From positions 1 through 32,807 of the IMG/VR virus record IMGVR_UViG_3300033153_005110: a stretch of 32,807 bases of DNA; one strand, given 5' to 3'. The notes under the pieces were generated by a model. That model searched no databases, was not told the origin of the DNA, and saw only the letters and a list, made by a program, of their open reading frames with translations. This DNA is from a virus. The position numbers and the translations under genes were made by a program. This document shows, in pieces, positions 2,222 through 30,126 of the stretch (positions within the stretch are counted from its first letter, which is position 1; the number at the start of each line of letters is the position of its first letter).

Positions 2222-3907
2222 TTAACGGCCCATCATTTGCTGTCGTCCTTGCTGTGTGGACTCCGATGCCATTTTGAAATAGTCCTTTATTAAGCCAGCT
2301 ACGGCCATAGCGTATTCACCCGCCATCTTGGGAGGACTTTTTACCTTTGACAACTGTTGAGCTGCATATTTTATTGCGTCAATGCTCGTCTGCCCTCCAC
2401 TAGATATCAAGTTGGCTATATCTGTATCTTGGGCAAGCGGATTCTTTGGATCGTTGAGCGCAGCAATAATACCTTGTTCCTCTGGTTGTGCCTGCTCAGG
2501 TTGGCCACCTCCACCCATAGCGCCACCAGGGGGCAACTCTGCGGCCCCTGCTTCCCGCACGCCAAGACCACCCATTCCACCGCCTTGCTGCGCCTCTGGG
2601 GCAGCAGGTTGAATTGCCTCCGCTGCGCCGCCATCAAGAACAGCTCTGGTTGTTGCTGGGGTCTTGGCCGATCTTGCTTGCTCTTTCTCTGCCGCTTCAA
2701 GGTCACCGGTTGGCACTTGCACAGGAACACCATTCTGCATTACCCACTCTGTGCCTGGTTGCGTTGGCTGGCCAGGCTGCGCCACTCCTGCTGGCGCTTG
2801 CCGACCATCTATTGGCGAAATAACAGGATAATCTTTTGTGGTGTCCCAGAAAAAACCATCTTTTGTTTCTGTAACATTATCAAGCTTATAGCCAGAGTTT
2901 TGCAGCAAAGCCTTAATCGTTGCGGTGTCAGAAGGATTAAGCTTGCCGTCTTTTGCGTTGGCAAGTAGGTCATTGACCTTCACCACCCTCTGCCGAACCT
3001 CTGACTCTTTCATGGCTGGCGGCTTGCCACCCATAACATTGGCGTCCTCTGCTGTGACAGCTTGCGCTTCTGCTTTTCTGGCATCAAACTTAGCCTTTTG
3101 TTCAGCAATAGTAAGGGCATTTACATCACCCATGCCGGATCTCTTAATAATCTTCCCGCCACTATCGGTATAAATATGCTCTACGTTGTTTCCCACGCCT
3201 CGCTGCATGTAATGCCAATAGTCTTTCCCCTTAATATTGACTCGCTGCGGTTGCTCTTTCTGCGTTTTATTCCAGGCAATCCTGCCATCATGGGCTTTTT
3301 GGGCCTGACCAGAGTTAAGAAAGGCGTTTGATTCACCCAGAAAACGATTAAGGTTTTCCTTGTCAGCGGGAAAAAACTGCTGTTGACCGCTTGAATTGTC
3401 AACAACAGAGAACACAACACCATCTGGAGTAGAAGCGGCTAATGCCTCAACCTCCGGGTTGCCTTCAACCATGGCCTGATAATATCCATCACCTTTTTCT
3501 TGCGACTCCTGAGCGAACTTTTTCATATCAAAGGTCTTAACAGAAAAGGGGGCAGAAGAATAGTTGGACATTCTCCCAAGGTTGATAGCCGCACGCCTGG
3601 TGTCACCGGTATTTATCTGACTCTGTGCCAGTGTTCCATACCTGTTCGCGCCTTTCTTGGCTTCGTCAAAGCTGGCTTGCGCTGTCTGTAGGCTTTTAAG
3701 TTTGGCAGCATCACGCATAGATGCAGGGACATCCTCGGTGAACTCGTCACCATCTGAATATTGCTGATATGCTTTCTTGAATAGCTTTTCGTCTGCTATC
3801 TCTGTGCCTCTTTGTTGGTTTCGTTGACTCTGGGCGTGAATACCCATAGCCATTGACCCCATCCTCATCCAATCTTCTCCGGTAACCCGGCCCCATCTAT
3901 CTGGCAT
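2222..3907 (-). CDS. Probable internal virion protein (ejection cassette)
   Basis: 561 residues with no family motif I recognise. The first 120 residues are helical and charged. The middle contains a mixed segment (about 150-270) that could be a small globular domain. A Gly/Pro/Ala/Gln-rich low-complexity linker spans about 375-480 and a helical Lys/Gln-rich tail follows. It sits between two other Gly/Ala-rich proteins and the giant ejection-type protein, matching the place where P22-like phages keep two or three DNA-injection proteins. AAGGA lies 8 bases before the ATG. The role as a DNA-ejection or internal core protein is inferred from position and composition; a structural scaffold of the tail is the main alternative. 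Confidence 0.5.
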   Translation of the reverse strand: MPDRWGRVTGEDWMRMGSMAMGIHAQSQRNQQRGTEIADEKLFKKAYQQYSDGDEFTEDVPASMRDAAKLKSLQTAQASFDEAKKGANRYGTLAQSQINTGDTRRAAINLGRMSNYSSAPFSVKTFDMKKFAQESQEKGDGYYQAMVEGNPEVEALAASTPDGVVFSVVDNSSGQQQFFPADKENLNRFLGESNAFLNSGQAQKAHDGRIAWNKTQKEQPQRVNIKGKDYWHYMQRGVGNNVEHIYTDSGGKIIKRSGMGDVNALTIAEQKAKFDARKAEAQAVTAEDANVMGGKPPAMKESEVRQRVVKVNDLLANAKDGKLNPSDTATIKALLQNSGYKLDNVTETKDGFFWDTTKDYPVISPIDGRQAPAGVAQPGQPTQPGTEWVMQNGVPVQVPTGDLEAAEKEQARSAKTPATTRAVLDGGAAEAIQPAAPEAQQGGGMGGLGVREAGAAELPPGGAMGGGGQPEQAQPEEQGIIAALNDPKNPLAQDTDIANLISSGGQTSIDAIKYAAQQLSKVKSPPKMAGEYAMAVAGLIKDYFKMASESTQQGRQQMMGR

Positions 3908-3930
3908 TGTGTAAATCCTTATTAATTAAA

Positions 3931-4188
3931 TTATGATAGCAAGTAAGCACCGATTCCCAACACGCCGCCAACCGCTGCGCCGATGCCCGTACCAACGCCT
4001 GGGATAATTGACCCTATTGCGGCCCCGGTTGACGCTCCGCCCATACCAGCCTGAATAGCCCCGCCAGCACTTGGCCCCGGATCTTCGGGGCCTTTCCGCT
4101 GCATCCCACCAAATGTTCCGGCAGCTCCGCCCATGGCCTGCTGCGCCCGACCAACATAGTCAGGTGTTTGATATAATCCAGTTGGCAT
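3931..4188 (-). CDS. Small glycine-zipper protein, probable membrane-active virion protein
   Basis: 85 residues from the ATG at 4188, chosen because GGAGG lies 8 bases upstream; an ATG at 4203 lacks such a site and lies inside the upstream gene. The N-terminal half is Gly/Gln/Pro-rich. Residues about 48-85 are almost only Gly, Ala, Ile and Val, with repeated GxxxG spacing (GAAIGSIIPGVGTGIGAAVG), a glycine-zipper pattern expected to pack in membranes. Its place in the ejection cassette suggests it is packaged and helps form a channel. A holin is less likely, because no charged C-terminal tail or lysis neighbour is present. Confidence 0.55.
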   Translation of the reverse strand: MPTGLYQTPDYVGRAQQAMGGAAGTFGGMQRKGPEDPGPSAGGAIQAGMGGASTGAAIGSIIPGVGTGIGAAVGGVLGIGAYLLS

Positions 4189-4190
4189 TA

Positions 4191-4832
4191 TTATGTCCTC
4201 CAAAGACTTGATGCGGCAGTTGTTGCGGCACCGGTTCGTCTAAACTTTTCTTCTCCGGCAGCGCGCCTGCCCATGGTTCTGGCCCCGCCAACCTGCTTGG
4301 CTTTCTCAAAACGTAAGTTTTGCATGGCCTTGCTGTGTTCCGGCGACCCCGGCGTAAATTGTCTATTAATCTGAGCTTCAGCCCCGGCGTAACCCTGGGC
4401 AACATCTGCTTGGGCTGTGCCCATCCATTCCCGCTGGTTTATATCCCCGGCCTGTTCCATCATGGAGCGAGCGCCGCCCATGGCGGTTAAGGCTGTTTCT
4501 GTTTGGTACGGCACCAATTCAGTTGCTGCACTTGTCCTCTCAGATTCAAGCCCAATTTGTTCTTTTCTCAGCCCTGTTTCCATCGGCAACAACTCGCGAG
4601 CATAACCCATCTGCTCACCCTCAAAACCGATCCGCTCTTTTTCGGCCTCAGTTTGATATGGGATCAGCTCAAGGTTCGACGCTATTTGCGCTTGCTCCAA
4701 AGGCTTGGCATCTGACTTCCAGAAATCAAATAACTCTGTTCCCATTGATTGCTGCGCTTCTGCAATCGTAGCCATGCGTGCGTTGTACGCTCGATCATAC
4801 GAATCACCACCACCACCACCACCACTACCCAT
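4191..4832 (-). CDS. Ala/Glu-rich helical virion protein (ejection cassette)
   Basis: 213 residues from the ATG at 4832, which has AGGAGG 6 bases upstream and overlaps the stop of the previous gene by 8 bases. After a Ser-Gly6 run near the N-terminus the protein is predicted to be long helix, with repeats of the type ELxPYQTExxxxxxG (about residues 57-110) giving three related segments. Two or three imperfect repeats beginning LIPYQTEAE, LLPMETGLR and LVPYQTETA are visible. The C-terminus is basic. No enzyme motif is present. The setting between adaptor-like proteins and the large internal proteins suggests an internal virion protein; the exact role is unknown. Confidence 0.5.
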   Translation of the reverse strand: MGSGGGGGGDSYDRAYNARMATIAEAQQSMGTELFDFWKSDAKPLEQAQIASNLELIPYQTEAEKERIGFEGEQMGYARELLPMETGLRKEQIGLESERTSAATELVPYQTETALTAMGGARSMMEQAGDINQREWMGTAQADVAQGYAGAEAQINRQFTPGSPEHSKAMQNLRFEKAKQVGGARTMGRRAAGEEKFRRTGAATTAASSLWRT

Positions 4833-5289
4833 GTCGAACCTCCTGTTGCCATTCAGCAAACGATTCTTGATCGTCTGTGTGATATAATTTATTTACTTCT
4901 AAAGCTATTTCGATGCACCTAATCTCATCCACCCCGCAAAGCATTGCCACAAATGGTATTATCTGTTCCAATACCTCCCGGTAAACAAACCCGTACATCT
5001 GGGTCAGCGGCCTGCTGCTTTTTGCCAAGGTGTTTGTTGCTGCCCACATTGTCAATGATGATATCATTATCCCAGACAAGGCGATTGCATTCTGCTTGTA
5101 GAATTGATTGAAGCCCATCAATGATATAAGTTTTGATATCGCCGGGACAATCATTTCTGGTGGTTCATCCTGATCAACAACATCATCTATTATCTGCGAT
5201 ATTTTAAATATTTCATATAGAAAAACAGCGGCATCACGATTGCCGTTTGTCCATCCTAGAAACTTTTCATATTCCTTGTTGTTTGTCAT
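4825..5289 (-). CDS. Unknown helical phage protein
   Basis: 154 residues, mostly helical, beginning with an EKFLGWTNGNRDAAVFLYEI segment and an acidic IIDDVVDQDEPP patch. Residues about 45-80 are moderately hydrophobic (IVPAISKLISLMGF and IALSGIMISSLTMWAA) but not a clear membrane span. Proteins with a similar short W-x-G-N-R-D-A start occur next to ejection-protein genes in podoviruses as far as I recall, but no function is known to me. The Shine-Dalgarno sequence is weak (GGAG about 13 bases away), so translation may depend on the gene just upstream. Confidence 0.5.
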   Translation of the reverse strand: MTNNKEYEKFLGWTNGNRDAAVFLYEIFKISQIIDDVVDQDEPPEMIVPAISKLISLMGFNQFYKQNAIALSGIMISSLTMWAATNTLAKSSRPLTQMYGFVYREVLEQIIPFVAMLCGVDEIRCIEIALEVNKLYHTDDQESFAEWQQEVRHG

Positions 5290-5293
5290 CGTT

Positions 5294-5833
5294 TTAAGAT
5301 ATCTCCAAGTAGCATGTTTTTATCTCTGATTCTCGGTCAACGAGATACCCCCGGTAATCACGATAAGTTACAATTATCTTGTAAGTCACTTCATCGTCAC
5401 CTGTAGCGGAGGTGTTAGGGATATATGTCAATGTACCAATAATGTTGTCAGTAAACAACCCTGTTCCAAGAGCGCCACCGTCAACCACCTCAAAGCTTCG
5501 GCTCTCGTATTCCTCGTCTTCAAACCATGTGCATTTTATTTTAAAAGCTTCTGGCTTGTCAACGTCAACATGTTCTCTTGCCGCTCCAGTGCCCACGTCA
5601 AAAGTTGCTGGGTGTGGGCGGTCATACTCATACCACACCACCTCTTCCATAGTGGCGTACATCCCTGGGATATGCACCGTTTTATACCGGTTGTCTTCGT
5701 AGTATGCCTTATCCACCGCAGATAGGTTTGGATCATTTATCCACCCGTCGATCTCTGCCAGCCGTCGGGCAACTTCTGCGTCAAGGTCGGCACTATTGGT
5801 AAAATAGCTCTTTTGAACACTAAACTGTGCCAT
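5294..5833 (-). CDS. Probable virion structural protein, beta-rich
   Basis: 179 residues. A short helical N-terminus (DLDAEVARRLAEIDGWINDP) is followed by a beta-rich domain with many aromatic and acidic residues, ending in VTYKIIVTYRDYRGYLVD. The pattern fits a small tail or appendage protein. It lies 3 bases downstream of another small beta-rich protein in the tail region, and the two may belong to one structure. The Shine-Dalgarno (GGCGGG) is weak. No family is recognised. Confidence 0.5.
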   Translation of the reverse strand: MAQFSVQKSYFTNSADLDAEVARRLAEIDGWINDPNLSAVDKAYYEDNRYKTVHIPGMYATMEEVVWYEYDRPHPATFDVGTGAAREHVDVDKPEAFKIKCTWFEDEEYESRSFEVVDGGALGTGLFTDNIIGTLTYIPNTSATGDDEVTYKIIVTYRDYRGYLVDRESEIKTCYLEIS

Positions 5834-6931: not shown

Positions 6932-9022
6932 TTACCCTGTCTCTGTCGCTGTCCATTTCACTGTACCTACAGCCGGTATATCCTCTGAAGGGGCAGAAAC
7001 ATCAATATAGTCAAGATAAAAGGTGCCGTATATTGTTCCCTTCACTGAGTCGGCTCTATATTTATATACAAGCAACCCTATCTCGACTTTATGTACCGTT
7101 CTTGTCGCGGCAAACGTTAAGTTAAAATGCTTTGTCTCTGTGGGTGCTTGATGGACTGGATTGCACCAGACGGCATCCAAGAACACCCACTCGCCATCGT
7201 CAACCTTATAAAAAATCTGCGATTGACCATCAGAGTCATAAGTAAAATCTGTGTTTCTACAAGTTACATCCCCCACGAATCTCAAAGTTGAACCAACTAT
7301 GGTTTGTGGAATGATTATTTTTTCAACAAAAGCGTAACCGTTCCCGGAGCCTACCCACTGATCGGTATTAGTCTCGGTTAGCTGTGTCGAATTATATGTA
7401 TACCTCTGGATAAACGATTCAAGTTCTAGCTTGGCGTAAATCTTAAAATGATATTGCATGGACTGCAACGGGTCTTCGTACACGCCGCCATGGTTACAGT
7501 TTGTAAATTGCTTCTCATCTGGGTAACTAGGAGAATATGTTTGCATTGTGGCCGGTGACACCAACACATACGGAGCTTTCCTCCAATATCCAGGCAAATC
7601 TATAACATCGTCATGCTCTCCTACGCCCTGTTCAAAACGCCTCACAGAACGGTACTCTCGCATGTCCGGAGAACCAACAGTCCCTATATTATAATAAAAC
7701 TTTAACTCTGAATTTGTTAACTCTGTGTAATCCCCAGTGGTGGGGTTTGCCACCCTGATACCGCCATACCCCGTGAAGTTCCAGGTAGTAGGCATATTAT
7801 TAATAAAGATATGGCCGTAACCGCCACTGAGCGGATCGGCGTCAAACAAAAACCCAACACCAGTACCAGAGGGCTCGTAGTTGCCGGACTGCAAAGACCA
7901 TGTAACTAGATCATGGGCCACCATTTTTTCAGCGGTAATCTCACCAGCATGAAGTGAATTAGCGTAGATGCTGCCGTCAACAATCAAGTCTCCCCTGATC
8001 CCGATAGTTGGCACGCTGTTTAATGTGCCTATCTCGAAGACTGCTTGCCCGTCTGTGTCCACAACTGCGGTTATATCTTTCCACCACTGCGAGGCGGTTA
8101 CGTCACTCCACCATGCCGGGCTGATTGCTGGAGTATTGCCGGTGTTGCCTGCCTGCAATGACTCGTAAAGTGTGTCTCCATCTACCCAAACTCTTGTGCC
8201 AACTCCGTATGTTGCTCCTTCGTCATATATCCCATAAGGATCGTTTGGCGTATTCCCCGTGTTGGCGTCGTGCAATGACTTAAAGTAGTCGCCAGAATAC
8301 TCAACAAGAGAATCTTTCCCATAAGTTGTGCCTGCTGAATAATCGGCAATGGTGTTTGATGGCTGCACAACCTGGAAAGAATCAGCAATAACTTTGTATT
8401 GTAAAGTGTAATTTGCTGACTCACTGGCCAGGGCATCAAGAAGCTCCGGAATAGTTGGATATGACGGGGCAACAAGACCACCCTGCGCTCCGTCTGGCTC
8501 CCATGTGGAATAGACCCCGCCATAAGTGACTGAGCGTATCCAATAATAATATGTTTTGCCGGGCCCAAGAGGATGATGAAGAAACTTAGCTATCGGGTTG
8601 TCTTCATCAAAATCAACTGTGGCCAGTTCATAGGCGCTGCTGCGGTCTGAACTATTTATGGCCACCCACACAGAAATATGTGATATGTCGGAAACATCGC
8701 CAACCGGGTCAGTCCAAGTAATGAGATTGCTTAGGCTGCCACCTCCGTTATCAATCGTGATATTGGTGGGTGGTGGTGGCACATCTTCCGGGGCAACGCT
8801 ACCGCCTGGATCATATTCTGGCGTACCAGGATTAAGATATGCCGGATCAAAGCCTGCATAGCGCAACCCTTGCTCTGTAACGGCTTTATCGTTAGCGTTG
8901 AATCTCCCTTCCCTTATCTCTATCCGCTCTTTTACTCTGGATAAAAAAGAACGTAATGCCGGATCTACCTTTAGCGTAGAGATATCCGGGATATCTGGAA
9001 TAGGCGTTGCTCTGCTAACCAT
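6932..9022 (-). CDS. Tail adhesin / host-specificity-like protein with Fn3 and chitin-binding-like modules
   Basis: 696 residues from the ATG at 9022, which overlaps the upstream stop by 8 bases; an ATG at 9037 has no ribosome binding site. Domains in order: a helical N-terminus that could anchor it to the tail; a proline hinge (VPPPPT); a fibronectin-III-like domain at about 85-175 (ITWTDPVGDVS to YYYWIRSV); two tandem modules at about 224-306 with the Y-x-x-G-x-x-V and YxSLxxxNTGNTP pattern of CBM5/12 chitin-binding-like domains; a J-protein-like segment at about 320-367 (IGIRGDLIVDGSIYANSLHA); and a beta-rich C-terminus. Together these point to a receptor-binding fibre or tip that recognises surface glycans. 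The ligand is not known. Confidence 0.65.
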   Translation of the reverse strand: MVSRATPIPDIPDISTLKVDPALRSFLSRVKERIEIREGRFNANDKAVTEQGLRYAGFDPAYLNPGTPEYDPGGSVAPEDVPPPPTNITIDNGGGSLSNLITWTDPVGDVSDISHISVWVAINSSDRSSAYELATVDFDEDNPIAKFLHHPLGPGKTYYYWIRSVTYGGVYSTWEPDGAQGGLVAPSYPTIPELLDALASESANYTLQYKVIADSFQVVQPSNTIADYSAGTTYGKDSLVEYSGDYFKSLHDANTGNTPNDPYGIYDEGATYGVGTRVWVDGDTLYESLQAGNTGNTPAISPAWWSDVTASQWWKDITAVVDTDGQAVFEIGTLNSVPTIGIRGDLIVDGSIYANSLHAGEITAEKMVAHDLVTWSLQSGNYEPSGTGVGFLFDADPLSGGYGHIFINNMPTTWNFTGYGGIRVANPTTGDYTELTNSELKFYYNIGTVGSPDMREYRSVRRFEQGVGEHDDVIDLPGYWRKAPYVLVSPATMQTYSPSYPDEKQFTNCNHGGVYEDPLQSMQYHFKIYAKLELESFIQRYTYNSTQLTETNTDQWVGSGNGYAFVEKIIIPQTIVGSTLRFVGDVTCRNTDFTYDSDGQSQIFYKVDDGEWVFLDAVWCNPVHQAPTETKHFNLTFAATRTVHKVEIGLLVYKYRADSVKGTIYGTFYLDYIDVSAPSEDIPAVGTVKWTATETG

Positions 9023-11390
9023 TTTGCACCAGCTCATAGATTGTTTTTGCTGCTGAAAATGGTGGCCTTATCTCTGTGTCAGAAATAAGCTCAAACTGGA
9101 ATTGTCTGTTTAAATACCCGGCGGTTAATGGGGTCACTGTGTTGTCAGAAATATCTATGGTTTGGCGAAGTGTCCCGTCGGTGTAAATATTGACTGTCAC
9201 TGTGGTGTCACAATGAAGCTGTATAGCCCCAATGTAAGTATAACCATCTGAGTAGAAAGTTTTTGTTTTGTATGTGAATGTGCCGTTGTCGCTTGAATTA
9301 CTATCAAACTCGAAAAGCCATCTTCCTTCTGTTTCCTCCGGTGCGGCTGGTAGGATTTCGTCACCAGCCGGAAGTATTGCGGTGCCATGGGGCAAGGTAA
9401 AAGCATCGGCATCGCCTGTGCTGATATTGTCGTAAAGCAAAAACAGTGTCTCGCCGTCTGCCCATCCGCAAACAACATCCAATGTGCCATATCCCATACC
9501 GCTGGTGACGTCTACTGTGGTTACACCGGTGGCCTCGGCCAAGGGGAAAACTAAAGCGTCTGGAGTATCATCAAAAAAAGCATGGTAGGCATCATCATAA
9601 TAAAAACCGATGATGTTGGTTATATCAAATTTGTTCCATTGCTCGCGGGTGTAAACGCCCTTGGTCAACAAGTAACCAGAGTCAGCCGATAAATGGAAAA
9701 GCCCTTCGTTCGTCGGATAAACAACGCCGGTCTGGGTTGAGACAATCCCGCGTTCCGCTACGCATGGCCGGTCATAAGGAAGCTCACTTTGTTGAATCAT
9801 TGTTGGGTCGGAGCCGGTAAGCAAAACAGGGTGACCTGCGGTCAGAGCAAAGATTGCACCGCCAGCGTTGGCGATACCAATGATGTCGTTTGACAACCGA
9901 TGCGAATAAGGCCATGCATGTGGAAACCCTGGCTCTGACAGATAAACTTCATCCTCAGTAAACCCTATTAGAATATTATTGGCATATTCGATAATACCGA
10001 TAAGGCTATCAGGTGGCGTGTCCCATCCTTCCGATGGAAGAACGATATCAAGTAGTGCGTCATCGGCTAAATAGTCGTCATGTGACGTTGTGCTGATCGG
10101 CAGGTCGTCAACAAGCTGCTGGTATGCTGACTCTGCGGTGCCTGTTACAAGCCGGTAAATTCTCACGTTGGTGATATTGTGACCTACTGGAGGCGTGGCA
10201 AAGTTGGTAAGCTGTATTCCCTGGCCCGTCAACACATCGAGTGGCCCGGAAGGTTCAGACGGCGCGCTTTCTTCATTCCAATCAGTTACCCATGTGTAGA
10301 CATAAATACCTGTTCTGATTATGTCCGGGTCGTCTGGAGCGGCCACAACGTTGGTATTTATAGCACTTGACCACATATCAGCCATTAACTGATATCCCGT
10401 ATCGGTTGGATGCCAGATGTCAGCCATCAAGGATGTGGCCCATCCAGCCACATCGGTAAAAGCTGTGTGCATGTCAACTTCGTACAGATTAGTTTTCGTG
10501 TGGGCAGCCAGCATAACAGATAAGTCAGTGTTAAAACGTACAAAGTTTGCGTTCCAATCGTTATCAGTTGATGGTATGATTAGCGCAACGTAAACTTGGA
10601 CATCTGGATTTTTCCCATGCAGAAAGTCAACAAGACTCTTCACATTGGCTACAGCGGTATCTATCTCTGCGTCTGTTACTACCTTGTCACCACCATCACC
10701 GCCACCAGCATCATAGATGTCATTAGTCCCTGCGTGGATAATGGCTATCGAGTTGTCGCCATTAACTCCGCTCATGTAAGTGTCGTAGTTCGCGGTGACT
10801 CTAACTAGCATCTCTGTTGACGCGTCACCATCCACGCCACTATGGTTGACGTCGTATGTTGGGTCTGACACTGGATCAGAAAATTCACCAACAAAATCAT
10901 AATTGCCTGTTAGCTCATCCTGCAAGTGGTCTCTAAACCCGAAGTTGTCACCTCCGGCAGTTCCCTTGGTTATTGAGTCACCTATGGGGTACAAAAAAAG
11001 GCTCTCTGTTATAGGCGGCGGATATACAGTGCCAATAATAGAGGCAGTAAGCGCATTGGTCGGAGCCAGAACACCAAGCGGGAAATCGTCACCACTGGCA
11101 TTGCCTTGGCGTGGGCCCGTACCATCGGCATAGATATAACGATCATCGTCACGGATAAATGAAGGAATTGGAACAATATTTACCTCGTCAAACTCTTTCC
11201 AGAGAGAGGAGTTAACCGGGTAAATTGAATTTGTGGTGTCGCTGAACTGGTCGCCAATAAGAACGCTCTTAACCGGATTAATTGAACCGGTATCAAGACG
11301 ACAATTCTCTGCGCCTGCTGCGGTGCCAGCTTTTAACAATCTTGGCTCAATGGCCGGGGTCATGCCTTTAAATGAGTCAATTCTTATCAT
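9015..11390 (-). CDS. Tail/connector protein with an inserted SGNH (GDSL) hydrolase domain
   Basis: 791 residues. Residues 1-120 and 355-791 look like one conserved podoviral protein: it starts with SFKGMTPAIEPRLL, has YVYTWVTDWNEESAPSEPS, RIYRLVTGT and LSEPGFPHAWPYS, and is beta-rich with a probable propeller fold. About 215 residues (roughly 130-345) interrupt it and carry the SGNH hydrolase blocks: GDSIT with nucleophile Ser139, a glycine block near 185-188, GTND with Asn223, and DIWHPTDTG with Asp324 and His327. The full catalytic set is present, so the insert is probably active as a deacetylase or esterase, perhaps on capsule, O-antigen or peptidoglycan acetyl groups; the substrate is inferred. 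It follows the connector-like gene by 3 bases. The start has only a weak Shine-Dalgarno and is probably coupled. Confidence 0.75.
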   Translation of the reverse strand: MIRIDSFKGMTPAIEPRLLKAGTAAGAENCRLDTGSINPVKSVLIGDQFSDTTNSIYPVNSSLWKEFDEVNIVPIPSFIRDDDRYIYADGTGPRQGNASGDDFPLGVLAPTNALTASIIGTVYPPPITESLFLYPIGDSITKGTAGGDNFGFRDHLQDELTGNYDFVGEFSDPVSDPTYDVNHSGVDGDASTEMLVRVTANYDTYMSGVNGDNSIAIIHAGTNDIYDAGGGDGGDKVVTDAEIDTAVANVKSLVDFLHGKNPDVQVYVALIIPSTDNDWNANFVRFNTDLSVMLAAHTKTNLYEVDMHTAFTDVAGWATSLMADIWHPTDTGYQLMADMWSSAINTNVVAAPDDPDIIRTGIYVYTWVTDWNEESAPSEPSGPLDVLTGQGIQLTNFATPPVGHNITNVRIYRLVTGTAESAYQQLVDDLPISTTSHDDYLADDALLDIVLPSEGWDTPPDSLIGIIEYANNILIGFTEDEVYLSEPGFPHAWPYSHRLSNDIIGIANAGGAIFALTAGHPVLLTGSDPTMIQQSELPYDRPCVAERGIVSTQTGVVYPTNEGLFHLSADSGYLLTKGVYTREQWNKFDITNIIGFYYDDAYHAFFDDTPDALVFPLAEATGVTTVDVTSGMGYGTLDVVCGWADGETLFLLYDNISTGDADAFTLPHGTAILPAGDEILPAAPEETEGRWLFEFDSNSSDNGTFTYKTKTFYSDGYTYIGAIQLHCDTTVTVNIYTDGTLRQTIDISDNTVTPLTAGYLNRQFQFELISDTEIRPPFSAAKTIYELVQNG

Positions 11391-11393
11391 TGG

Positions 11394-11966
11394 TTAAAAC
11401 CAGTCTTTTGTTCTTGGGGCACGTTTCCCACGCCTTGTTATTGCATTGATTCTGGCGTTGTCGATGTCTTCGCTGAAAATTTGATAATAGGCGGCGCTCA
11501 ATGCCGGGTTACTCCACGGCTGGTGAACCATAAGCAGTAGCTTGCTTTGTGCGCCAAATATCAACCCTTCCTGCCATCTCGTATTGATGTTGTCCGGGAT
11601 GACTACGGCTGTTTGATCGTTGCCCTTCTGCGGAACCAAGGAGCATGTCAGCGTGTATGTCTTATCACCGCTTGGCTCGGTATCGAGAGAAAACTGTTGC
11701 TTGTTTTTGTCCCATGACCAATCGGTGTATTCATCGCCGTTTTCGTTGAGAACAGAGATGACATTTAGCAAGTCGTAATCAGTTGGTGACGTCACTGTAT
11801 AATCAGTATCACCGGTGGTTATGGGCTGGCTGATATCCTGCTGGTTTGCTTCGGTCTGCGAACAGAAGTACCTAAACACCTCAAAGATACGATTCTCTGC
11901 GGTGGTCTGGGGGCAACCTGGAGCGACTTCAATTACCTGGTCGTAAAGATCGGCAAGCGTGACCAT
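11394..11966 (-). CDS. Probable head-tail connector / adaptor protein
   Basis: 190 residues. A helical N-terminus (MVTLADLYDQVIEVAPGCPQ) is followed by a beta domain (ITTGDTDYTVTSPTDYDLLN) and a helical C-terminus containing the WQEGLIFGAQSKLLLM segment and a basic tail. This alpha-beta-alpha pattern, with a W-x-E-x-L-x-x-G-A-x-x-x-L-L helix, recurs in small phage proteins between capsid and tail genes that I think are adaptor or head-completion proteins. Its position directly before the tail protein agrees. GGTGAG is next to the ATG. The connector role is inferred from position and fold pattern. Confidence 0.5.
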   Translation of the reverse strand: MVTLADLYDQVIEVAPGCPQTTAENRIFEVFRYFCSQTEANQQDISQPITTGDTDYTVTSPTDYDLLNVISVLNENGDEYTDWSWDKNKQQFSLDTEPSGDKTYTLTCSLVPQKGNDQTAVVIPDNINTRWQEGLIFGAQSKLLLMVHQPWSNPALSAAYYQIFSEDIDNARINAITRRGKRAPRTKDWF

Positions 11967-12955: not shown

Positions 12956-14047
12956 TTAAGCGTTTGGATCAGCAGCAGCGGAATCAACAGAGATAACGCC
13001 GTAATCAGCACCGTCATAGCGAGACTTCTTAACGCCGTAAATAGCGCCAGCAGTAATTGCCAGAGCGTTGCCACGGTCATCAGACTCCTCATGCCAAGAC
13101 ATCTGGTTTTTGCTAGAGACAGAGCTTGCTCCACCCCATGCAGCCATACCAGCCTGTGCTCCAAGACAGAGAGACCGGGAAGCAGAAACATCGCTACCAG
13201 CACCATAGTCGTCAAACTGGATAACATTACGATGTTCGTGCATTATCATCCCGCCATATTCGCCAAGCGAGTCCTGGTACATCATGGCCTTGTTGCCACG
13301 ATCTGTTGCCTTATGGATCTCCAGCCAATCTGTTTCGCTGGTAGAAGTACGCATATTGTAAACATCAAATGGATGCATCAAAAGTACAAACTTGCGTGAA
13401 CCATTAATCATAAACGGCAACATGACCGGGTCACGGGTTTTCAGCTTGGCATTAAGCTTCTCAACCACGGCCAGGCTCATTACGTCTGTCGCGTCCAAGT
13501 CGGCCTTTGAAACTGCACCACCGGAATAAATCAAACTGGTGGCATCAGGGGCCTGCAATGTGTTATTCGCTCGACCTGTCCAATCCAAACCAACATGGAA
13601 AGAGCTGTCGATACCACGAGCGCCTGCAAGATACATCATGCACTGCTCATCGTAATCTTCTGCCCACCAAGTGGAAAGAGCGTCCCGACCTTCTTTACGA
13701 AGCGCAAATGGAACACGCTGTTCAGACATTTTACCTTTGGACTTGGTTCCCTTACGCCTCTGGTCAATGAACAGAGAATCGTTGAAGAAATCAAGTGCTT
13801 CCTCGGCATCGGTTCCCTCGATAGGGTTGTCGCCTTCGATACCATCGCCAGACAACTTCATACGAAGCGGAACGATGATCTTTTCACCAGCGGCCTTTGA
13901 AAGCTGCTGCTTAATACGAATCATGGAGTTACCATCTGTGCCCATGAACTTACGGAAATACTGCTTTTTCTGTGCTTCTACTTCAAGCGCAGACTCCCAT
14001 CGTTGTACCGCTAACGGGTCACCTAGGGGGAAATCTGTAGCTGCCAT
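12956..14047 (-). CDS. Major capsid protein, N4-gp56 / Phage_capsid_3-like
   Basis: 363 residues. Recognisable features of the N4-gp56 family are: an N-terminal FPLGDPLAVQRWESAL helix; the K-x-A-G-E-KIIVPLRMKLSGDGIEGD segment, with conserved Gly and Asp; a RRKGTKSKGKMSEQRVPF loop; LRKEGRDALSTWWA; and a C-terminal HK97-type segment GALAI-like (NALAITAGAIYGVKKSRYD). It follows the scaffold gene and precedes the decoration-like protein. AGAGG sits before the ATG. The length is normal for the smaller members of the family. The fold assignment to HK97 is family knowledge. Confidence 0.85.
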   Translation of the reverse strand: MAATDFPLGDPLAVQRWESALEVEAQKKQYFRKFMGTDGNSMIRIKQQLSKAAGEKIIVPLRMKLSGDGIEGDNPIEGTDAEEALDFFNDSLFIDQRRKGTKSKGKMSEQRVPFALRKEGRDALSTWWAEDYDEQCMMYLAGARGIDSSFHVGLDWTGRANNTLQAPDATSLIYSGGAVSKADLDATDVMSLAVVEKLNAKLKTRDPVMLPFMINGSRKFVLLMHPFDVYNMRTSTSETDWLEIHKATDRGNKAMMYQDSLGEYGGMIMHEHRNVIQFDDYGAGSDVSASRSLCLGAQAGMAAWGGASSVSSKNQMSWHEESDDRGNALAITAGAIYGVKKSRYDGADYGVISVDSAAADPNA

Positions 14048-16177: not shown

Positions 16178-18274
16178 TTAATCTCCAAAGTTGGCCATCA
16201 TTGGGGATGGCTGCTTATATTGTAACTCTTGAGCTTTCAGTTTAGTTGTTGCTCCAAGCTCAAAAGCGTCAAGCTGCACTTTTTCTTTTGCTGCATCGGC
16301 TTTCTTCTTGCCCGACTCTGCGTCTTCAAGAGTCTTTTCTATATCTGCTTCTATTGAGGCATTGGTCAAAGCCTTATTCTCAAGATCAAGCTGAATACCA
16401 ATATCATCAATCTTCTTGAGCCTTGCATCCTCGTCCTGCTGCGCCTGCATAGACTCAAGAACCTGCTGCTTGACCTGCTCAGGTGTCATATCTTCCTCAC
16501 CTGGAGTACCACCAAGCATAGGCTTGATTTTAGCCATCAACATTTCCTTGTTTGGTAAATCGCTCAACTCCATAGCAACCGACATGAGGTGCGGTATCAT
16601 TTCAGGTGGAGAACGCTTAACCCACTCAACAATCATGTTCAGGTTTCTTTCCCGAACTGTATCAGACTCAGGAGCCTCTGAAACGATAATGTCATACCGG
16701 CCTTGAGTAATATTGTTTTCATAAATAACCTCGCCGGAAGGTGTTTGTATCGGCTTATTCAGTTCAACGAACCTTTCAGCACCGGTAATCGAGTCGGTGA
16801 CACGTAAAACCTTTGGCCCTGTCCAATGTTGCTGGATGCCCGACTGTATCAGCTCACCCATTCTCTTGATGGAACGGGAGCGATTAGCCAGAACAGAAGC
16901 GGTGGTCTTTGCACCCTGCTGCTGCTTTTTTTGTAGCCCAACACCAGATGTGACGTTTGACTGATAGCCCATCATTTCGTTGTTGGCCCCGGAAACCTCT
17001 TGGATCTCCATTTCAGACTGCTGGAGCATCTGCATCTGTGGAGCTGCCAGGCCGGAAAGCTCATCAATCTTAAAGTTTCCCATCTGCCCGTTTTTAAGGA
17101 CAACATGACCGTCAAGCCTATTTGATTCTTCAAACGTAGCTTGCGGGTCTTTGCTTGCGCCTTCTTCCTGGACAATCCTGCGTGAGTTCATCAAGGCCAA
17201 GGCCATTGACCGACGCTTGTTTACTTCCAAGTCCTGCCCACGTATCTGCCGGGGAACACCAAAAGGGAGGCCATAACGATCAAGATAACCGATAAACGGT
17301 ACAAAAGGAAATTCATCATGGTTATGGGGTGACGGTTCGTGCATGAGAATCACTTTGCCGAAGAATCCAACAATGTGCATCTTCATAACCTTGGCCGACA
17401 CAATTTCCTGGGCCTGCTGGATGATACCCATTTGGGTTTGATTATCCATGGTCTCAGGCATTTCAATTACTCGACCATCGGCAAACGTTGCAAAAAGAGA
17501 CGTGGTGTAGCGATAATACCACATTTCTACCGGCCTGATACGCTTACGCCTAAAGTCAACCCAATCACCAGAGGTTAGCTCACCTTTTTTGTTTTCAATC
17601 TGGGTAGCCGGGTCGTACTGATCATTCCACGCCGCCCTGCTGTAATCAGAACTTTCTGTCAGCTCATTGAACTGGCCCTGTATCTCTTTGGCTTGGCCGG
17701 GGTACATGGCGATCAAGTCGTCCATGTCCATCCATTTATCTTGATAAACGTACCGGCAAGTATTGGTATTAAACCAGGGCGATCCGTAAGGATCCCATGA
17801 AACATTACCCCATGGCCGGTGGGCAATTCTAACTTTTTCTTTCCGGGGGTCTTCGTTGACCCCAATCTGCAAACAGCCAAACCCACCAACAACAGACTCT
17901 TTGAATGCTTCTCCAACAACAGAAACGCCATGGTTCTGGTCAACGACAAACTTGATAGACTCACTCATGGTTTGCGACTGCTGCCCGTCTTTGTGGGTGC
18001 GGCCTTTGGCTACAATGTCGGTGTTGTTTACTTGCTGGGAGCCGATGATAAGATTGCAGACAGGGAAAGTACGATTGATGGTGATAGGGTCAACGCCCTT
18101 ATCTTCCAGCTTCTTCTTCTCTTTGTCTGTCCACTGGTCGCCATCGTACATCTCATTGTCACGCCATGAGTCAGCCCGCCATTCTTCGGAGGCTGTGCGG
18201 GAATCGTTCACCCACTGGATAAACTTTTCAATGTTATATGTCTTTTTGCCGTCTGTTGGGTGTTGTGTGTTCAT
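16178..18274 (-). CDS. Portal protein, P22 type
   Basis: 698 residues, near the size of P22 gp1. It opens with a helical segment and RADSWRDNEMYDGDQWTDKE, then ITINRTFPVCNLIIGSQQVN, both typical of the P22 portal family, followed by HRPWGNVSWDPYG and, later, DLEVNKRRSMALALMNSR. The C-terminal 100 residues are a long Gln/Glu/Lys helix that would form the barrel projecting into the head. The portal is the dodecameric ring through which DNA enters and leaves; it docks the terminase. The ATG overlaps the large terminase stop (TAATG). Confidence 0.88.
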   Translation of the reverse strand: MNTQHPTDGKKTYNIEKFIQWVNDSRTASEEWRADSWRDNEMYDGDQWTDKEKKKLEDKGVDPITINRTFPVCNLIIGSQQVNNTDIVAKGRTHKDGQQSQTMSESIKFVVDQNHGVSVVGEAFKESVVGGFGCLQIGVNEDPRKEKVRIAHRPWGNVSWDPYGSPWFNTNTCRYVYQDKWMDMDDLIAMYPGQAKEIQGQFNELTESSDYSRAAWNDQYDPATQIENKKGELTSGDWVDFRRKRIRPVEMWYYRYTTSLFATFADGRVIEMPETMDNQTQMGIIQQAQEIVSAKVMKMHIVGFFGKVILMHEPSPHNHDEFPFVPFIGYLDRYGLPFGVPRQIRGQDLEVNKRRSMALALMNSRRIVQEEGASKDPQATFEESNRLDGHVVLKNGQMGNFKIDELSGLAAPQMQMLQQSEMEIQEVSGANNEMMGYQSNVTSGVGLQKKQQQGAKTTASVLANRSRSIKRMGELIQSGIQQHWTGPKVLRVTDSITGAERFVELNKPIQTPSGEVIYENNITQGRYDIIVSEAPESDTVRERNLNMIVEWVKRSPPEMIPHLMSVAMELSDLPNKEMLMAKIKPMLGGTPGEEDMTPEQVKQQVLESMQAQQDEDARLKKIDDIGIQLDLENKALTNASIEADIEKTLEDAESGKKKADAAKEKVQLDAFELGATTKLKAQELQYKQPSPMMANFGD

Positions 18275-19689
18275 TATGCGGCTCGTTGTGGTCTGAATTG
18301 TGATTGAGACTTGGATGGTGGGTTAAAACCAACACCCATCATTGCTGAGTCTGCAATATTTGGGGACATTATACCAAGTTTTTTCATTTCTGGCTTGGCC
18401 ATAATCTGAAACAGACCATTACCGTTCTTTTTCTCAGGCACCCGGCATATCTCAGAGCGCATCTGAACAAGACACTTGATATCAGACGAAATAGAAATCA
18501 TCTTATCAGGGTCAGTGAATACCTTTTTGTTTACTGCCTGGTAGGTATGATAAAATCTATCTCGAAGACGGGCATAATACTGAGCTCGTTTATTTTTAAA
18601 CATCTGCTTATTAGTGCGGATGTTCTCTGCTTTTTCCGCAGAAACACATATTTCGTCCGGGTCTTCTACTCGCTCAGACCCTTTAAACATGTACCAATCA
18701 ATTTCCGTATCTTCAAGCGCAGTGTCAACTTGCCTCTTTAGCGCCACACCAAGACCGTCACAATCCCAGGTGAAGCAATCAGCGCCATGATTCTTGGCAT
18801 AATCAAGCGCCCAATCTGTCCCGGCGGCCACATCTCCGGTTTCCATTTCCTGGGCATCAAGGATAATAGAACCATGCCGAAAACAGATCGCTTTTGAATC
18901 TGACCCCTCATCGCTCGGATCATAAGACAGGACTTTTTGGCCGCGAGGCTTGAAGCCAAGTTTAATGTGGGCGTCAACGGCGGCATCAAACCATTCTGTC
19001 TTTATGATGGAACCAGGCACAGAATCATTGAAGGCCCCTTCCCATATATGCAGGTATTCAGCCCTGGGTTTGTTCTCGTAATCCCATTGCCTTTGCTGTT
19101 CAAGCTCCGGCGGGAACCACGGGTTTTCTGTGTAGTTGCAGAAAATAACGAGGTGCATATCATCTTCATAATATCCATCGCGCTGGAGCTGTTTTAAGTA
19201 TGGGGTGATAAATCGCTTGGAGAAAGGATCGCTGGAGGCTTGGGGGTTGGCTGTGAAGAATAGCTTAGAGCCTGCCGCACGAATAGTTGGCAGGAGATCG
19301 TCAATAGTTTTTTGGCTAATCGTGTCGGCTTCTTCTATCCATGAATATTTGAAACCCTGGGCAGACTTGACCGCTTCCGGGTTACGAGCAAAACCACGGA
19401 AACGAAAACCTCCACCGGTGGTGCAATTGATCTTCTTGTCAGTGATATCAAAGCCCTGTATGCCCATTGTATCGACAAGACCTTTCAGGAGCTTATGCAC
19501 AGAGTCCTCTATAGAGTTTTGGTACTCACGCCCTGCAAGGATATCTGCTTGCTCTGTTTGGGCCTTCATCAACAGATATCGGGCTATACTCTCTGACTTG
19601 CCCGACCCACGACCACCGACAATAACGATAAGGCGTGCCTTTGTCGCTATTATTGGCAATAGCTTTTCTGGGATCTGGATCTCTGGCAT
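18274..19689 (-). CDS. Terminase large subunit
   Basis: 471 residues. ATPase domain: Walker A GGRGSGKS at residues 26-33, adenine-binding region near the N-terminus, Walker B YSWIEEAD at about 115-122, coupling motif SKLFFTANPQ at about 140-149. Nuclease domain (RNase H-like, terminase_3 C type): first catalytic Asp in VLSYDPSDEG near 252, further acidic residues in FTWDCDGLG near 300, and SDIKCLVQMRSE toward the end. It cuts concatemeric DNA and drives packaging into the portal. The Shine-Dalgarno is weak and translation probably depends on the small subunit gene two bases upstream. Confidence 0.93.
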   Translation of the reverse strand: MPEIQIPEKLLPIIATKARLIVIVGGRGSGKSESIARYLLMKAQTEQADILAGREYQNSIEDSVHKLLKGLVDTMGIQGFDITDKKINCTTGGGFRFRGFARNPEAVKSAQGFKYSWIEEADTISQKTIDDLLPTIRAAGSKLFFTANPQASSDPFSKRFITPYLKQLQRDGYYEDDMHLVIFCNYTENPWFPPELEQQRQWDYENKPRAEYLHIWEGAFNDSVPGSIIKTEWFDAAVDAHIKLGFKPRGQKVLSYDPSDEGSDSKAICFRHGSIILDAQEMETGDVAAGTDWALDYAKNHGADCFTWDCDGLGVALKRQVDTALEDTEIDWYMFKGSERVEDPDEICVSAEKAENIRTNKQMFKNKRAQYYARLRDRFYHTYQAVNKKVFTDPDKMISISSDIKCLVQMRSEICRVPEKKNGNGLFQIMAKPEMKKLGIMSPNIADSAMMGVGFNPPSKSQSQFRPQRAA

Positions 19690-27058: not shown

Positions 27059-28315
27059 CTACTCCCCACCACCCAACGCTTCCGATAAATATGTGTTACG
27101 CTTTGTCTCGGTATTATTCTGCACAGCCCTCTTAACAGCCTTCATATTGCCAACCACATGCAACTCTTTTCTGAACCTTGACAATGCTGTGTACAATAAC
27201 TGCCGTGACCACATATAAAAATGACTTGAATGGCAAATCAAAACACCTTTTTTGTATTGGCTGCCCTGGCTCTTGTGAACGGTCAACACGTACCCCAGCT
27301 GGATCTGGTTAATGGAATCGCTATCTGCGTAATGGTATAGTTCACCATCGTAATCAACAATCACTGTTTTATTTCCTGGGTCAATTTTGACAACAACACC
27401 AGTAAACCCATTAAATACATCCATTTTATAATTGTTCTTGGTGTGGAGAACCTTGTCGCCTTCTCGCAACTTCCAGCCATATATTGATATCTCTGCTTTT
27501 CCCATGCTGGGTGGATTTAATTTATCTTGCAAGAAAAAATTCATAGCTTCCACGCCACATATCCCAGTGTGTTGAGGGGAAAGCACCACGTAGTCATCAC
27601 CATTGTTGAACCACTCCCGGCACAACTCAACAACAACCATTGGTATTTCTTCCTTGTCTTCGTGTTCGTGAAAAAACAGGTCATCTTTATTTTGGCTGTT
27701 CAGCGTTCTTTGCCCTGGCTGGCCCCAAACAGGTTTATCACCAGAAATGACAAGTTCACAAGCGTTGGCAATTAGGCTGCCATGCTCTTGCCGGTAATTT
27801 GTTATTAACTCGCTTACGACCTGCTTGTGGTGATTAACTATAGAAAGGAACGGATTTCCGGCACCAACCGGCGGCAACTGCGATTTATCGCCAACCAAAA
27901 CAAATCTGCAGTTCCTTGACACAGAGGTAAAAAGCCTGTTCAGCAGCAAGCTGTCAATCATGCTCGACTCATCCACAATAATAAGGTCAGCGTCCAGCCT
28001 ATCTTTTGCGTTATATTCCCATTCGCGGCCCCGGCAACCCAGGCCCCGGTGGATGGTTGTTGGTTGGTGGTCAAGCTCCACACCGGCGTCACTTAAAGCA
28101 TCCATTAAAACCTTGGCGGCTTTTCCCGTGGGAGCCATGATAAATGTTTTAAAACTTTTTACTTCTTTTGCCCAAAATCCAGCAAGAATAAATTGTGTCA
28201 CTGTGGTTTTGCCACGACCAGGGCCACCGCACAGAACAGAAACTCTTTGATTTCCGGCTACGATATCAGATACCGCTTTATGTTGTATGTCGTCTAGTTC
28301 TATTGTTGTTGTCAC
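27059..28315 (-). CDS. RecD2-like helicase, motor half
   Basis: 418 residues, all SF1B helicase motifs of RecD2: Walker A GGPGRGKT (30-37), Ia APTGKAA (61-67), Walker B DESSM (115-119), III GDKSQLPPVG (142-151), IV TNYRQ (172-176), V VHKSQGSQY (346-354), VI YTALSR (375-380). It lacks the N-terminal OB and helix-hairpin-helix part, which is coded by the gene just upstream and ends in an ATGA overlap with this start. In full-length RecD2 both parts form one polypeptide of about 700 or more residues. 5'-3' DNA unwinding in phage recombination or repair is expected, probably as a complex of the two gene products. Confidence 0.85.
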   Translation of the reverse strand: MTTTIELDDIQHKAVSDIVAGNQRVSVLCGGPGRGKTTVTQFILAGFWAKEVKSFKTFIMAPTGKAAKVLMDALSDAGVELDHQPTTIHRGLGCRGREWEYNAKDRLDADLIIVDESSMIDSLLLNRLFTSVSRNCRFVLVGDKSQLPPVGAGNPFLSIVNHHKQVVSELITNYRQEHGSLIANACELVISGDKPVWGQPGQRTLNSQNKDDLFFHEHEDKEEIPMVVVELCREWFNNGDDYVVLSPQHTGICGVEAMNFFLQDKLNPPSMGKAEISIYGWKLREGDKVLHTKNNYKMDVFNGFTGVVVKIDPGNKTVIVDYDGELYHYADSDSINQIQLGYVLTVHKSQGSQYKKGVLICHSSHFYMWSRQLLYTALSRFRKELHVVGNMKAVKRAVQNNTETKRNTYLSEALGGGE

Positions 28316-29229
28316 GCTGTCACCTCCATTTCAATACTTCTCTCAGCCGCCAACAACTCAGCCGAATAAATTTTTCCGCCGTCAATTTCAATCTTCCCCT
28401 CATTATTGAGGTTATAAATACACCGGCGCACATCGTCATAAACCGGCATGCCGATCAACGAAACCTCAGCCTTGGCCGCACTATCTTTAAGGATATCCAG
28501 CACAATGGCGATTAACTGCTTGCCCCACTGATACACATGGCCGTTGTTTATCTGAGAATCATTGAGGCAATGAACCACACAAGCCATTGTCCTGGCATCG
28601 TTTTTGACACCTATCCCGGCTTTTAGAGCAATGGCATCTGTTATCTTGAAACCAAAACCATCTATTGTCTGGCTCAGGACGTATGGTGTCTCTTGCACAG
28701 TCTTTATAGCATCGTGGCCATACTCTTTTATGATCTTGTTGGCCTGGTTGCTGGTTAATCCTATGCCAAGCAAGTAAATGGTAGCCTCGGCAAATTCAAC
28801 CATGACTGCGGCAATGTCCATGGCCTCGGCTGTTTTTGCTGGCGGAACACCTAGTTTTGTTGGGTCTTTCTTGGCAAAATTCCAAGCGTTTTCCGGGCCA
28901 TGCTCTTTCACGGCTTGCGCTGCTTTCTTGGGGCCAAGTCCTGGGAGTTTTTGCAGCAGTTTAATTACTCCGGCCTCGGTGTTTACGTCCGGGGTTTCCG
29001 GGACGATTTTAAAACACTTTAGCTGGGTACCGTACTTTGTTGATTCGCAGAGTTTGCCGGTTACTGTTACCGTGTCGCCTGTGTCTGTTGATTGCGGCAA
29101 AACTCCGGTACAATTGTATTGCTTGTTGGTGTCATTGGTGAAGACTTTGAATGTCGCCCAGTTGTCCGAATTTCTAAACGGGAGCGATGTTATCTCCCCA
29201 GTTACCGTAATCTCGTTTTTGTTTTTCAC
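28312..29229 (-). CDS. RecD2-like helicase, N-terminal half (OB + helix-hairpin-helix)
   Basis: 305 residues from the GTG at 29229, with GGGAG 8 bases upstream; in-frame ATGs at 29250 and 29256 are alternatives that would overlap the 55-residue gene. The N-terminal OB fold (EITVTGEITSLPFRNSDNWA) is followed by a first HhH, LQKLPGLGPKKAAQAVKEHG, a second LLGIGLTSNQANKIIKEYG and TPYVLSQTIDGFGFKITDAI, then a winged-helix-like part ending near the last residues with IYSAELLAAERSIEME. This is the exact domain order before the motor in RecD2. No ATPase motif is present. The C-terminus matches the point where the motor begins in intact RecD2. Confidence 0.8.
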   Translation of the reverse strand: MKNKNEITVTGEITSLPFRNSDNWATFKVFTNDTNKQYNCTGVLPQSTDTGDTVTVTGKLCESTKYGTQLKCFKIVPETPDVNTEAGVIKLLQKLPGLGPKKAAQAVKEHGPENAWNFAKKDPTKLGVPPAKTAEAMDIAAVMVEFAEATIYLLGIGLTSNQANKIIKEYGHDAIKTVQETPYVLSQTIDGFGFKITDAIALKAGIGVKNDARTMACVVHCLNDSQINNGHVYQWGKQLIAIVLDILKDSAAKAEVSLIGMPVYDDVRRCIYNLNNEGKIEIDGGKIYSAELLAAERSIEMEVTA

Positions 29230-29233
29230 TTTA

Positions 29234-29401
29234 TTATCTCCCGTCCGCATTTTCATCAGTCTCGTAAAGACCAGACTCCCAATCCTTATACTCGACATAC
29301 CCAACTGTCACCCATTGGCTTATTTCCGCTTCCCAGTATTGCAACTCTGGTTCAGTTTTATAGCCAGCGTCATTACATTCTACTGCCCATCTTAGTTTCA
29401 T
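29234..29401 (-). CDS. 55-residue unknown protein between MBL and RecD2 genes
   Basis: TGATG overlap with the MBL stop. MKLRWAVECNDAGYKTEPEL to the acidic tail LYETDENADGR contains several Trp and Tyr residues; a single small domain is likely. TAA ends it 4 bases before the RecD2 N-half GTG start, whose ribosome binding site lies within its last codons. The tight fit argues for real translation. Confidence 0.6.
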   Translation of the reverse strand: MKLRWAVECNDAGYKTEPELQYWEAEISQWVTVGYVEYKDWESGLYETDENADGR

Positions 29402-30126
29402 CACATCACCGTTATAAGAGGTAAGACTTCATTCTGTTTGGCCACGTAAACCGTCACCTGGCAAGGACTGCAACCAGCTGCCTTTAAACCCCTAATGGCT
29501 TCATATTTTGCTAACTCTGGACTATTATTAGACTCGCTCAGATGGAAACAAATAACGTGTTCAAGCTTGTCGCTCCCCACCACCTCCAATAAATCACCAG
29601 CCGACTCATTTGTCATGTGTGTTTCTGAAATCCTTATGCGTAAATCATCCGGGTATTTGGTGTTTGCCAGAAGCATAGACGTATCGTAGTTAAATTCTTG
29701 GATGATTATTGAGGCATCAAGGTAATGTCTTAAACTGTCACATGGAATGGTTACACTATCTGGTGAGTAAACCAGCACGTTACCGTCTGTGTCGGTTATG
29801 CGGAAACCGCAACATGGCTCGTCATGGGCAAGGAGGAAGGGTTCAATTTTGAATTTGTCTGTAGGCGAAGATGCGGCCCCACCCCCAAAATATACAGGAA
29901 CTATTTGGTGTCTATTTTGAAATACATCAACCCCGCCAATATGATCTCCGTGAGAATGAGAAATAAATATTTTACTAATCCACGAAGGATCGCGGTTAAT
30001 ATCGTCCAATCTCTTTTTTAATGTTTTGTAATTCAGGCCGCAGTCTAATAAAAAACCTTGCCCGTCTACTTCCACATAAACAGCGTTTCCCTTGCTGCCG
30101 CTGGCTAAAACTGATACGCGGATCAT
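29401..30126 (-). CDS. MBL-fold metallohydrolase, YycJ/WalJ-like
   Basis: 241 residues. Metallo-beta-lactamase fold motifs: HSHGDH at residues 57-62, VYSPDS with Asp123 in place of the usual D-x-G, SETHMT with His170, and FHLSESN with His195, enough for two metals. Closest type by pattern is the YycJ/WalJ subgroup (SVLASGSKGNA start), suspected phosphodiesterases acting on nucleic acids. It overlaps the KilA-N stop (ATGA) and is followed by a RecD2 pair, so a DNA-processing nuclease role in the same pathway is inferred. Confidence 0.75.
   Translation of the reverse strand: MIRVSVLASGSKGNAVYVEVDGQGFLLDCGLNYKTLKKRLDDINRDPSWISKIFISHSHGDHIGGVDVFQNRHQIVPVYFGGGAASSPTDKFKIEPFLLAHDEPCCGFRITDTDGNVLVYSPDSVTIPCDSLRHYLDASIIIQEFNYDTSMLLANTKYPDDLRIRISETHMTNESAGDLLEVVGSDKLEHVICFHLSESNNSPELAKYEAIRGLKAAGCSPCQVTVYVAKQNEVLPLITVM

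Follow-up and report, generated by a model that had tools for sequence, protein, structure and literature searches.

The window, that is, the whole stretch of DNA analysed here, is a contig of 32,807 bases from an uncultured bacterial virus in an environmental sample. Its morphogenesis genes lie on the minus strand in the order terminase, portal, scaffold, capsid, small genes, a 190-aa phrog_437 gene, and a gene for a 791-aa tail nozzle protein (Table 1). The nozzle gene thus falls within a portal-to-tail block and adjoins a small adaptor-like gene, which, judged from its position and size, probably encodes the adaptor. The nozzle reading frame runs without interruption over all 791 aa. Between its first propeller strands and an Ig-like module it encodes a segment resembling a complete SGNH hydrolase, which is the subject of this report.

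Elsewhere on the contig, Pfam and PHROG profiles identified a primase-like gene. A RecD2-type helicase is split across two minus-strand ORFs that share 4 bases (27059-28315 and 28312-29304), with the N-terminal OB and helix-hairpin regions in one and the motor and SH3 regions in the other; this arrangement reflects either a real split gene or a frameshift. A further minus-strand gene (29401-30126) encodes a metallo-beta-lactamase-fold protein (PF00753, E 7.6e-13), whose likeness to the anti-Pycsar protein Apyc1 was below threshold (20 bits, against a cut-off of 50).

Table 1. Positions of the nozzle gene, its parts, and neighbouring genes in the window
Feature	Coordinates	Strand	Basis
Tail nozzle protein gene, 791 aa plus stop, with inserted SGNH domain; phrog_511 family	9015..11390	-	ORF, profiles, 8jov_A
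Residues 1-121, N-terminal platform strands and first propeller blade(s)	11028..11390	-	Alignment to 8jov_A 4-120 and L121 2-138; strand layout of L121 model
Residues ~122-355, whole insert, in place of a loop of ~8 residues in relatives	10326..11027 (approx.)	-	Homologue alignments
Residues 131-348, SGNH/CE3-like hydrolase domain	10347..11000	-	Pfam; AF2 pLDDT mostly 80-97; VIA Z 23.4 to 2vpt
Ser139, predicted nucleophile, block I GDSIT	10974..10976	-	Alignments
Gly188, block II, predicted oxyanion hole	10827..10829	-	Alignments
Asn223, block III GTND, predicted oxyanion hole	10722..10724	-	Alignments
Asp324-x-x-His327, block V	10410..10421	-	Alignments
Residues 358-440, Ig/FN3-like beta domain immediately following the insert; probably the distal domain of the nozzle	10071..10319	-	Strand order in models; L032 tandem repeat; SU10/T7 analogy
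Residues 441-791, rest of the propeller and C-terminal platform	9018..10070	-	Models, fold matches
Upstream neighbour, 190 aa, phrog_437 virion structural protein; probable adaptor	11394..11966	-	phrog_437 E 1.6e-21
P22-type portal protein	16178..18274	-	PF16510 E 1.9e-110
Major capsid protein	12956..14047	-	PF13252 E 8.9e-49
Terminase large subunit	18274..19689	-	PF04466 E 1e-33
Downstream neighbour, 701 aa, J-like tail fibre segment	6932..9037	-	phrog_31 E 1.5e-9, residues 82-326

The host protein is a tail nozzle

The 791-aa product is the presumably hexameric tail-nozzle protein of a podovirus with a P22-type portal and is a homologue of the GP4 nozzle. The phrog_511 profile matched residues 1-775 (E 6.6e-90), and because these 775 residues align with just 527 profile positions, about 248 residues are surplus. 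The nearest solved relative was 8jov_A (phmmer E 1.7e-47), from the portal-tail complex of Ralstonia phage GP4, an entry that contains six chains of nozzle type. We read 8jov_A as the nozzle on the strength of the entry title, the six chains, the fold matches, and the literature, in which the GP4 entry 8JOU is described as including the tail nozzle collar. The model of the whole window protein matched 8jov_A with a VIA Z of 22.2. For L121, an IMG/VR relative without the insert that shares 145 of 468 aligned residues with the window protein, a model built from 47 sequences (mean pLDDT 90, pTM 0.84) matched 8jov_A with a Z of 33.4 and the nozzles of Pa223, SU10, VP1, P22 (gp10), and T7 (gp12) with Z values of 15-21; the window and L121 models share a platform and propeller fold with the solved nozzles. 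The PHROG label for phrog_511, “internal virion protein,” is misleading in view of these sequence and fold matches.

An earlier note on this DNA had proposed that the regions on either side of the SGNH segment form one continuous podoviral tail protein of the connector or propeller type, and both flanks indeed aligned to single homologues. In the phmmer alignment with 8jov_A, query residues 2-121 lay opposite 4-120 and query residues 362-608 opposite 129-375. In L121, residues 2-138 and 147-600 lay opposite query residues 2-120 and 362-789, so that 8 residues separate the flanks in L121 and 241 separate them in the window protein. Because both flanks align to one homologue, the insert can be delimited to approximately residues 122-355. 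The segment first reported, 10356-11003, was correctly located, but the alignments give it a slightly greater extent, to about 10326-11027.

The insert is absent from the homologues examined

A relative of the nozzle protein was found in 157 phage records, of which 17, all from cultured phages, were looked at. The relatives in these 17 measure 524 to 615 aa, compared with 791 aa in the window; the SGNH insert was absent from all 11 that were aligned, and the 6 others were judged by annotated length alone (533-593 aa). No second SGNH domain was found by motif in ~220 homologous ORFs among the matches listed, a set that includes many near-duplicate loci, so that its counts are not counts of independent events. 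Because the homologues were ranked by how well they matched the window protein as a whole, relatives bearing an SGNH domain should have been favoured. Pattern scans of IMG/VR with the whole protein and with the SGNH domain only, together with one whole-protein genome scan, gave no close relative among the matches listed, and the SGNH domain alone as a query had no match in 50,697 phage records at E 1e-3. The expectation that this family usually lacks the insert is thus borne out among the matches listed, and the alignments confirm that the homologues do not carry the segment.

Since the record comes from an uncultured virus and the fusion occurred just once among the matches listed, we considered whether misassembly of metagenomic reads had joined an esterase gene into the nozzle gene. 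Both junctions, however, are in frame and fall exactly at the loop where other viruses bear inserts (see below). The GC content of the insert is 0.470, against 0.471 and 0.475 in the flanks, and its GC3 and codon usage are like theirs. Matching composition and in-frame ends together make an assembly chimera unlikely, and we regard an artefact of this kind as very improbable; the matching GC content and codon usage also argue against a recent graft.

The insert is a CE3-like SGNH domain with its signature residues intact

PF13472 (Lipase_GDSL_2) matched residues 136-335 with an E value of 1.5e-15 and 58.6 bits (cut-off, 32.9), and PF00657 matched residues 134-338 (E 2.2e-10). Four motifs, GDSIT (137-141), GVDG (185-188), GTND (221-224), and DIWHP (324-328), align with blocks I, II, III, and V of secreted CE3-like esterases, and all of the SGNH signature residues (Ser139, Gly188, Asn223, and Asp324/His327) are kept. 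The block I sequence conforms to GxSxT, a feature of CE3 enzymes (PMC9487903). Block II reads GVDG rather than the usual GxSG, which is a point against the esterase reading favoured below.

In an AlphaFold model of the whole protein, built from 32 sequences, residues 131-348 form a compact alpha/beta/alpha fold (pLDDT mostly 80-97) joined to the nozzle by linkers with pLDDT below 50 (residues 121-128 and 349-356). Since the pTM of this model is 0.48, it does not predict the orientation or placement of the SGNH domain. The prediction of a separate domain with every signature residue present was accordingly upheld by the Pfam match, the motif alignments, and the structural model, in which residues 131-348 stand as an independent SGNH unit. 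The top VIA match was the CE3 enzyme of C. thermocellum (2vpt; Z 23.4, root mean square deviation of 2.5 A over 193 residues, 22% identity), followed by the Talaromyces CE3 structures 5b5l and 5b5s (Z 22.8). Other SGNH families trailed by just 1-3 Z units, and 2vpt was also the top phmmer match, a weak one (E 0.0017). We therefore call the domain CE3-like only, an assignment made by model fold and sequence match.

The nearest relatives in sequence among the matches listed, L154 (41% identity) and L155 (35%), are SGNH proteins that stand alone and seem to carry signal peptides; the bacterial relatives from the genome collection matched less well (best, 32%). The L154 (3857-4639) and L155 (3899-4663) genes lie in viral contigs and may be phage cargo genes for secreted esterases. 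A phrog_511 search of these two contigs gave no match, nor did its control, and both records may be fragments.

The SGNH domain occupies a loop at which other domains have been acquired

In a first set of 150 homologous ORFs, 11 others besides that of the window carried a net insert of at least 40 aa, among the matches listed. Ten of these inserts fell within or close to positions 89-130 of the 580-position profile, and that of L086 lay at 377-388; in L032 and L072 the first match of the profile overruns the site, and the inserts were placed by reading the sequence. A further scan added L213, with an insert in the same zone, L212, with one earlier in the chain, and L211, described below. About 6% of the homologues examined thus carry other inserts, nearly all at or near the SGNH loop, among the matches listed. 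These inserts are mutually unrelated and varied in size and kind: L017 has BNR-like repeats (by eye), L029 has glycine-rich repeats, and L032 (3977-6631) repeats in tandem the Ig-like module that follows the loop. The only Pfam match was to an E1_FCCH-like beta domain in L078, and Pfam gave no confident enzyme in any of these other inserts.

The clustering of nearly all other inserts at or near this loop marks it as a domain-acquisition site and implies that additions there are tolerated. In SU10, the distal nozzle is formed by four Ig-like domains that lie between propeller blades 2 and 3 (PMC9509320), an arrangement that the tandem modules of L032 recall. In T7, the tip of the nozzle arises from a blade 3 loop and is directed at the outer membrane (PMC6702177). 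By analogy with these two phages, the SGNH loop would lie at the entry to a distal Ig-like domain, and because the insert directly precedes that module (residues 358-440), the esterase may be placed near the tail tip; domain order and strand layout suggest this position. The earlier proposal that the domain sits in a surface loop can therefore be kept as to the loop but made more specific: the loop is an acquisition site at the Ig-like domain entry rather than a random surface loop.

Three relatives deserve separate mention. The L211 nozzle gene is in two frames (2862-3725 and 3680-5341) and has another, repeated beta insert; it showed the highest local identity to the window protein among the nozzle relatives listed (40%), and its contig and that of L154 share a metagenome number. 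In L010 (Vibrio phage 1F273_PE002) and L012 (Aeromonas phage phiARM81mr), a reverse transcriptase gene and an Avd-like accessory gene (1294-2945 in L010, 1390-3023 in L012) lie just upstream of the nozzle gene, a pair resembling diversity-generating retroelements.

Discussion

Phage enzymes that act against host glycans are usually viewed as parts of spikes and fibres. Virion-borne SGNH esterases are already known in such proteins: G7C gp63.1, the Moo19 and B2 tailspikes, and fibres of Klebsiella prophages and Acinetobacter phages each carry an SGNH esterase that acts on a host surface glycan (PMC11654681, PMC13123978, PMC11058221). Those enzymes sit in receptor-binding proteins, whereas the predicted esterase described here lies inside the presumably hexameric nozzle. 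The GP4 nozzle (8jov_A; Bcep22-like podoviruses, phrog_511) is homologous to the window protein across both flanks but spans the gap between 120 and 129 with ~8 residues, in contrast to the ~240 that form the SGNH domain and its linkers in the window protein. SU10 gp17, T7 gp12, and P22 gp10 have the platform and propeller fold of L121, and SU10 and T7 likewise bear extra propeller-derived domains at the distal nozzle; the distal domains of these nozzles are Ig-like or beta-barrel structural domains, and no enzyme has been described among them. CE3 enzymes such as 2vpt and 5b5s, which give the best fold match and share all the catalytic blocks, are not virion parts, and block II of the window domain reads GVDG. 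Tail tubular protein A of KP32, KP34, and phiYeO3-12 is a short-tail protein credited with a second, saccharide-hydrolysing role (PMC7582827), but it is an adaptor rather than a nozzle, and no inserted SGNH domain has been described in it. In the literature searched, coverage of which was incomplete, we found no described case of an enzyme inside a nozzle protein.

The insert most likely serves to place a polysaccharide O-deacetylase at the tail tip in six copies. As part of a hexameric nozzle, the tube at the tail tip of the podovirus, the esterase would be present six times per virion, close to where the tail ends. It would act during adsorption, cutting O-acetyl groups, or other small acyl groups like them, from the capsule, O-antigen, or exopolysaccharide of the host by a Ser-His-Asp mechanism, and deacetylation would help the tail tip to reach the outer membrane ahead of DNA ejection. 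The intact catalytic residues and the apparently secreted relatives L154 and L155 fit an active extracellular esterase, and since no signature residue is missing, the likeliest role is to take O-acetyl groups off a host-surface polysaccharide, as SGNH tailspikes do. In other phages, both tailspikes and fibres of the SGNH type have esterase or deacetylase activity (PMC11654681, PMC13123978). On balance we consider it probable that a nozzle-borne esterase deacetylates host surface polysaccharide at adsorption. A point against a polysaccharide esterase is that SGNH folds also include acyltransferases and lipases.

Two other functions were weighed. The domain may serve mainly as a carbohydrate-binding or spacer module for host contact, with catalysis secondary or lost; most other inserts in the loop are beta-rich by eye and match no enzyme profile, and their variation in size and kind fits a loosely constrained decoration. 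The signature residues, however, are all kept at low overall identity (~22% to the CE3 structures, 28-44% where sequences were aligned), as would be expected if catalysis is under selection, and we consider a mainly binding or spacer role unlikely. Alternatively, the esterase may act after the nozzle opens, removing O-acetyl groups from peptidoglycan or attacking membrane lipid in the manner of a lipase, rather than acting on surface polysaccharide. In the tail, it is the nozzle tip that points toward the outer membrane (PMC6702177), and the SGNH superfamily takes in lipases and peptidoglycan-acting enzymes (PMC9487903). The nearest matches in both fold and sequence, however, are CE3-type polysaccharide acetylesterases. 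Entry of the nozzle into the periplasm is also not known, and we regard this possibility as unlikely.

If the preferred reading of a polysaccharide deacetylase is right, catalysis would take place at the site of DNA exit, by an enzyme that comes without a separate receptor-binding protein. A wider proposal, which we advance tentatively and would put at slightly below even chances, is that the nozzle itself is enzymatic, with six esterases at the acquisition loop beside the DNA exit; that the last glycan layer is cleared by the ejection tube and not by the spikes; and that the loop serves Bcep22/GP4-like podoviruses in general as a place to exchange modules for host contact. An esterase within the nozzle would also point to a conserved loop of the nozzle that accepts new domains, and nozzle proteins would be worth screening for hidden enzymes.
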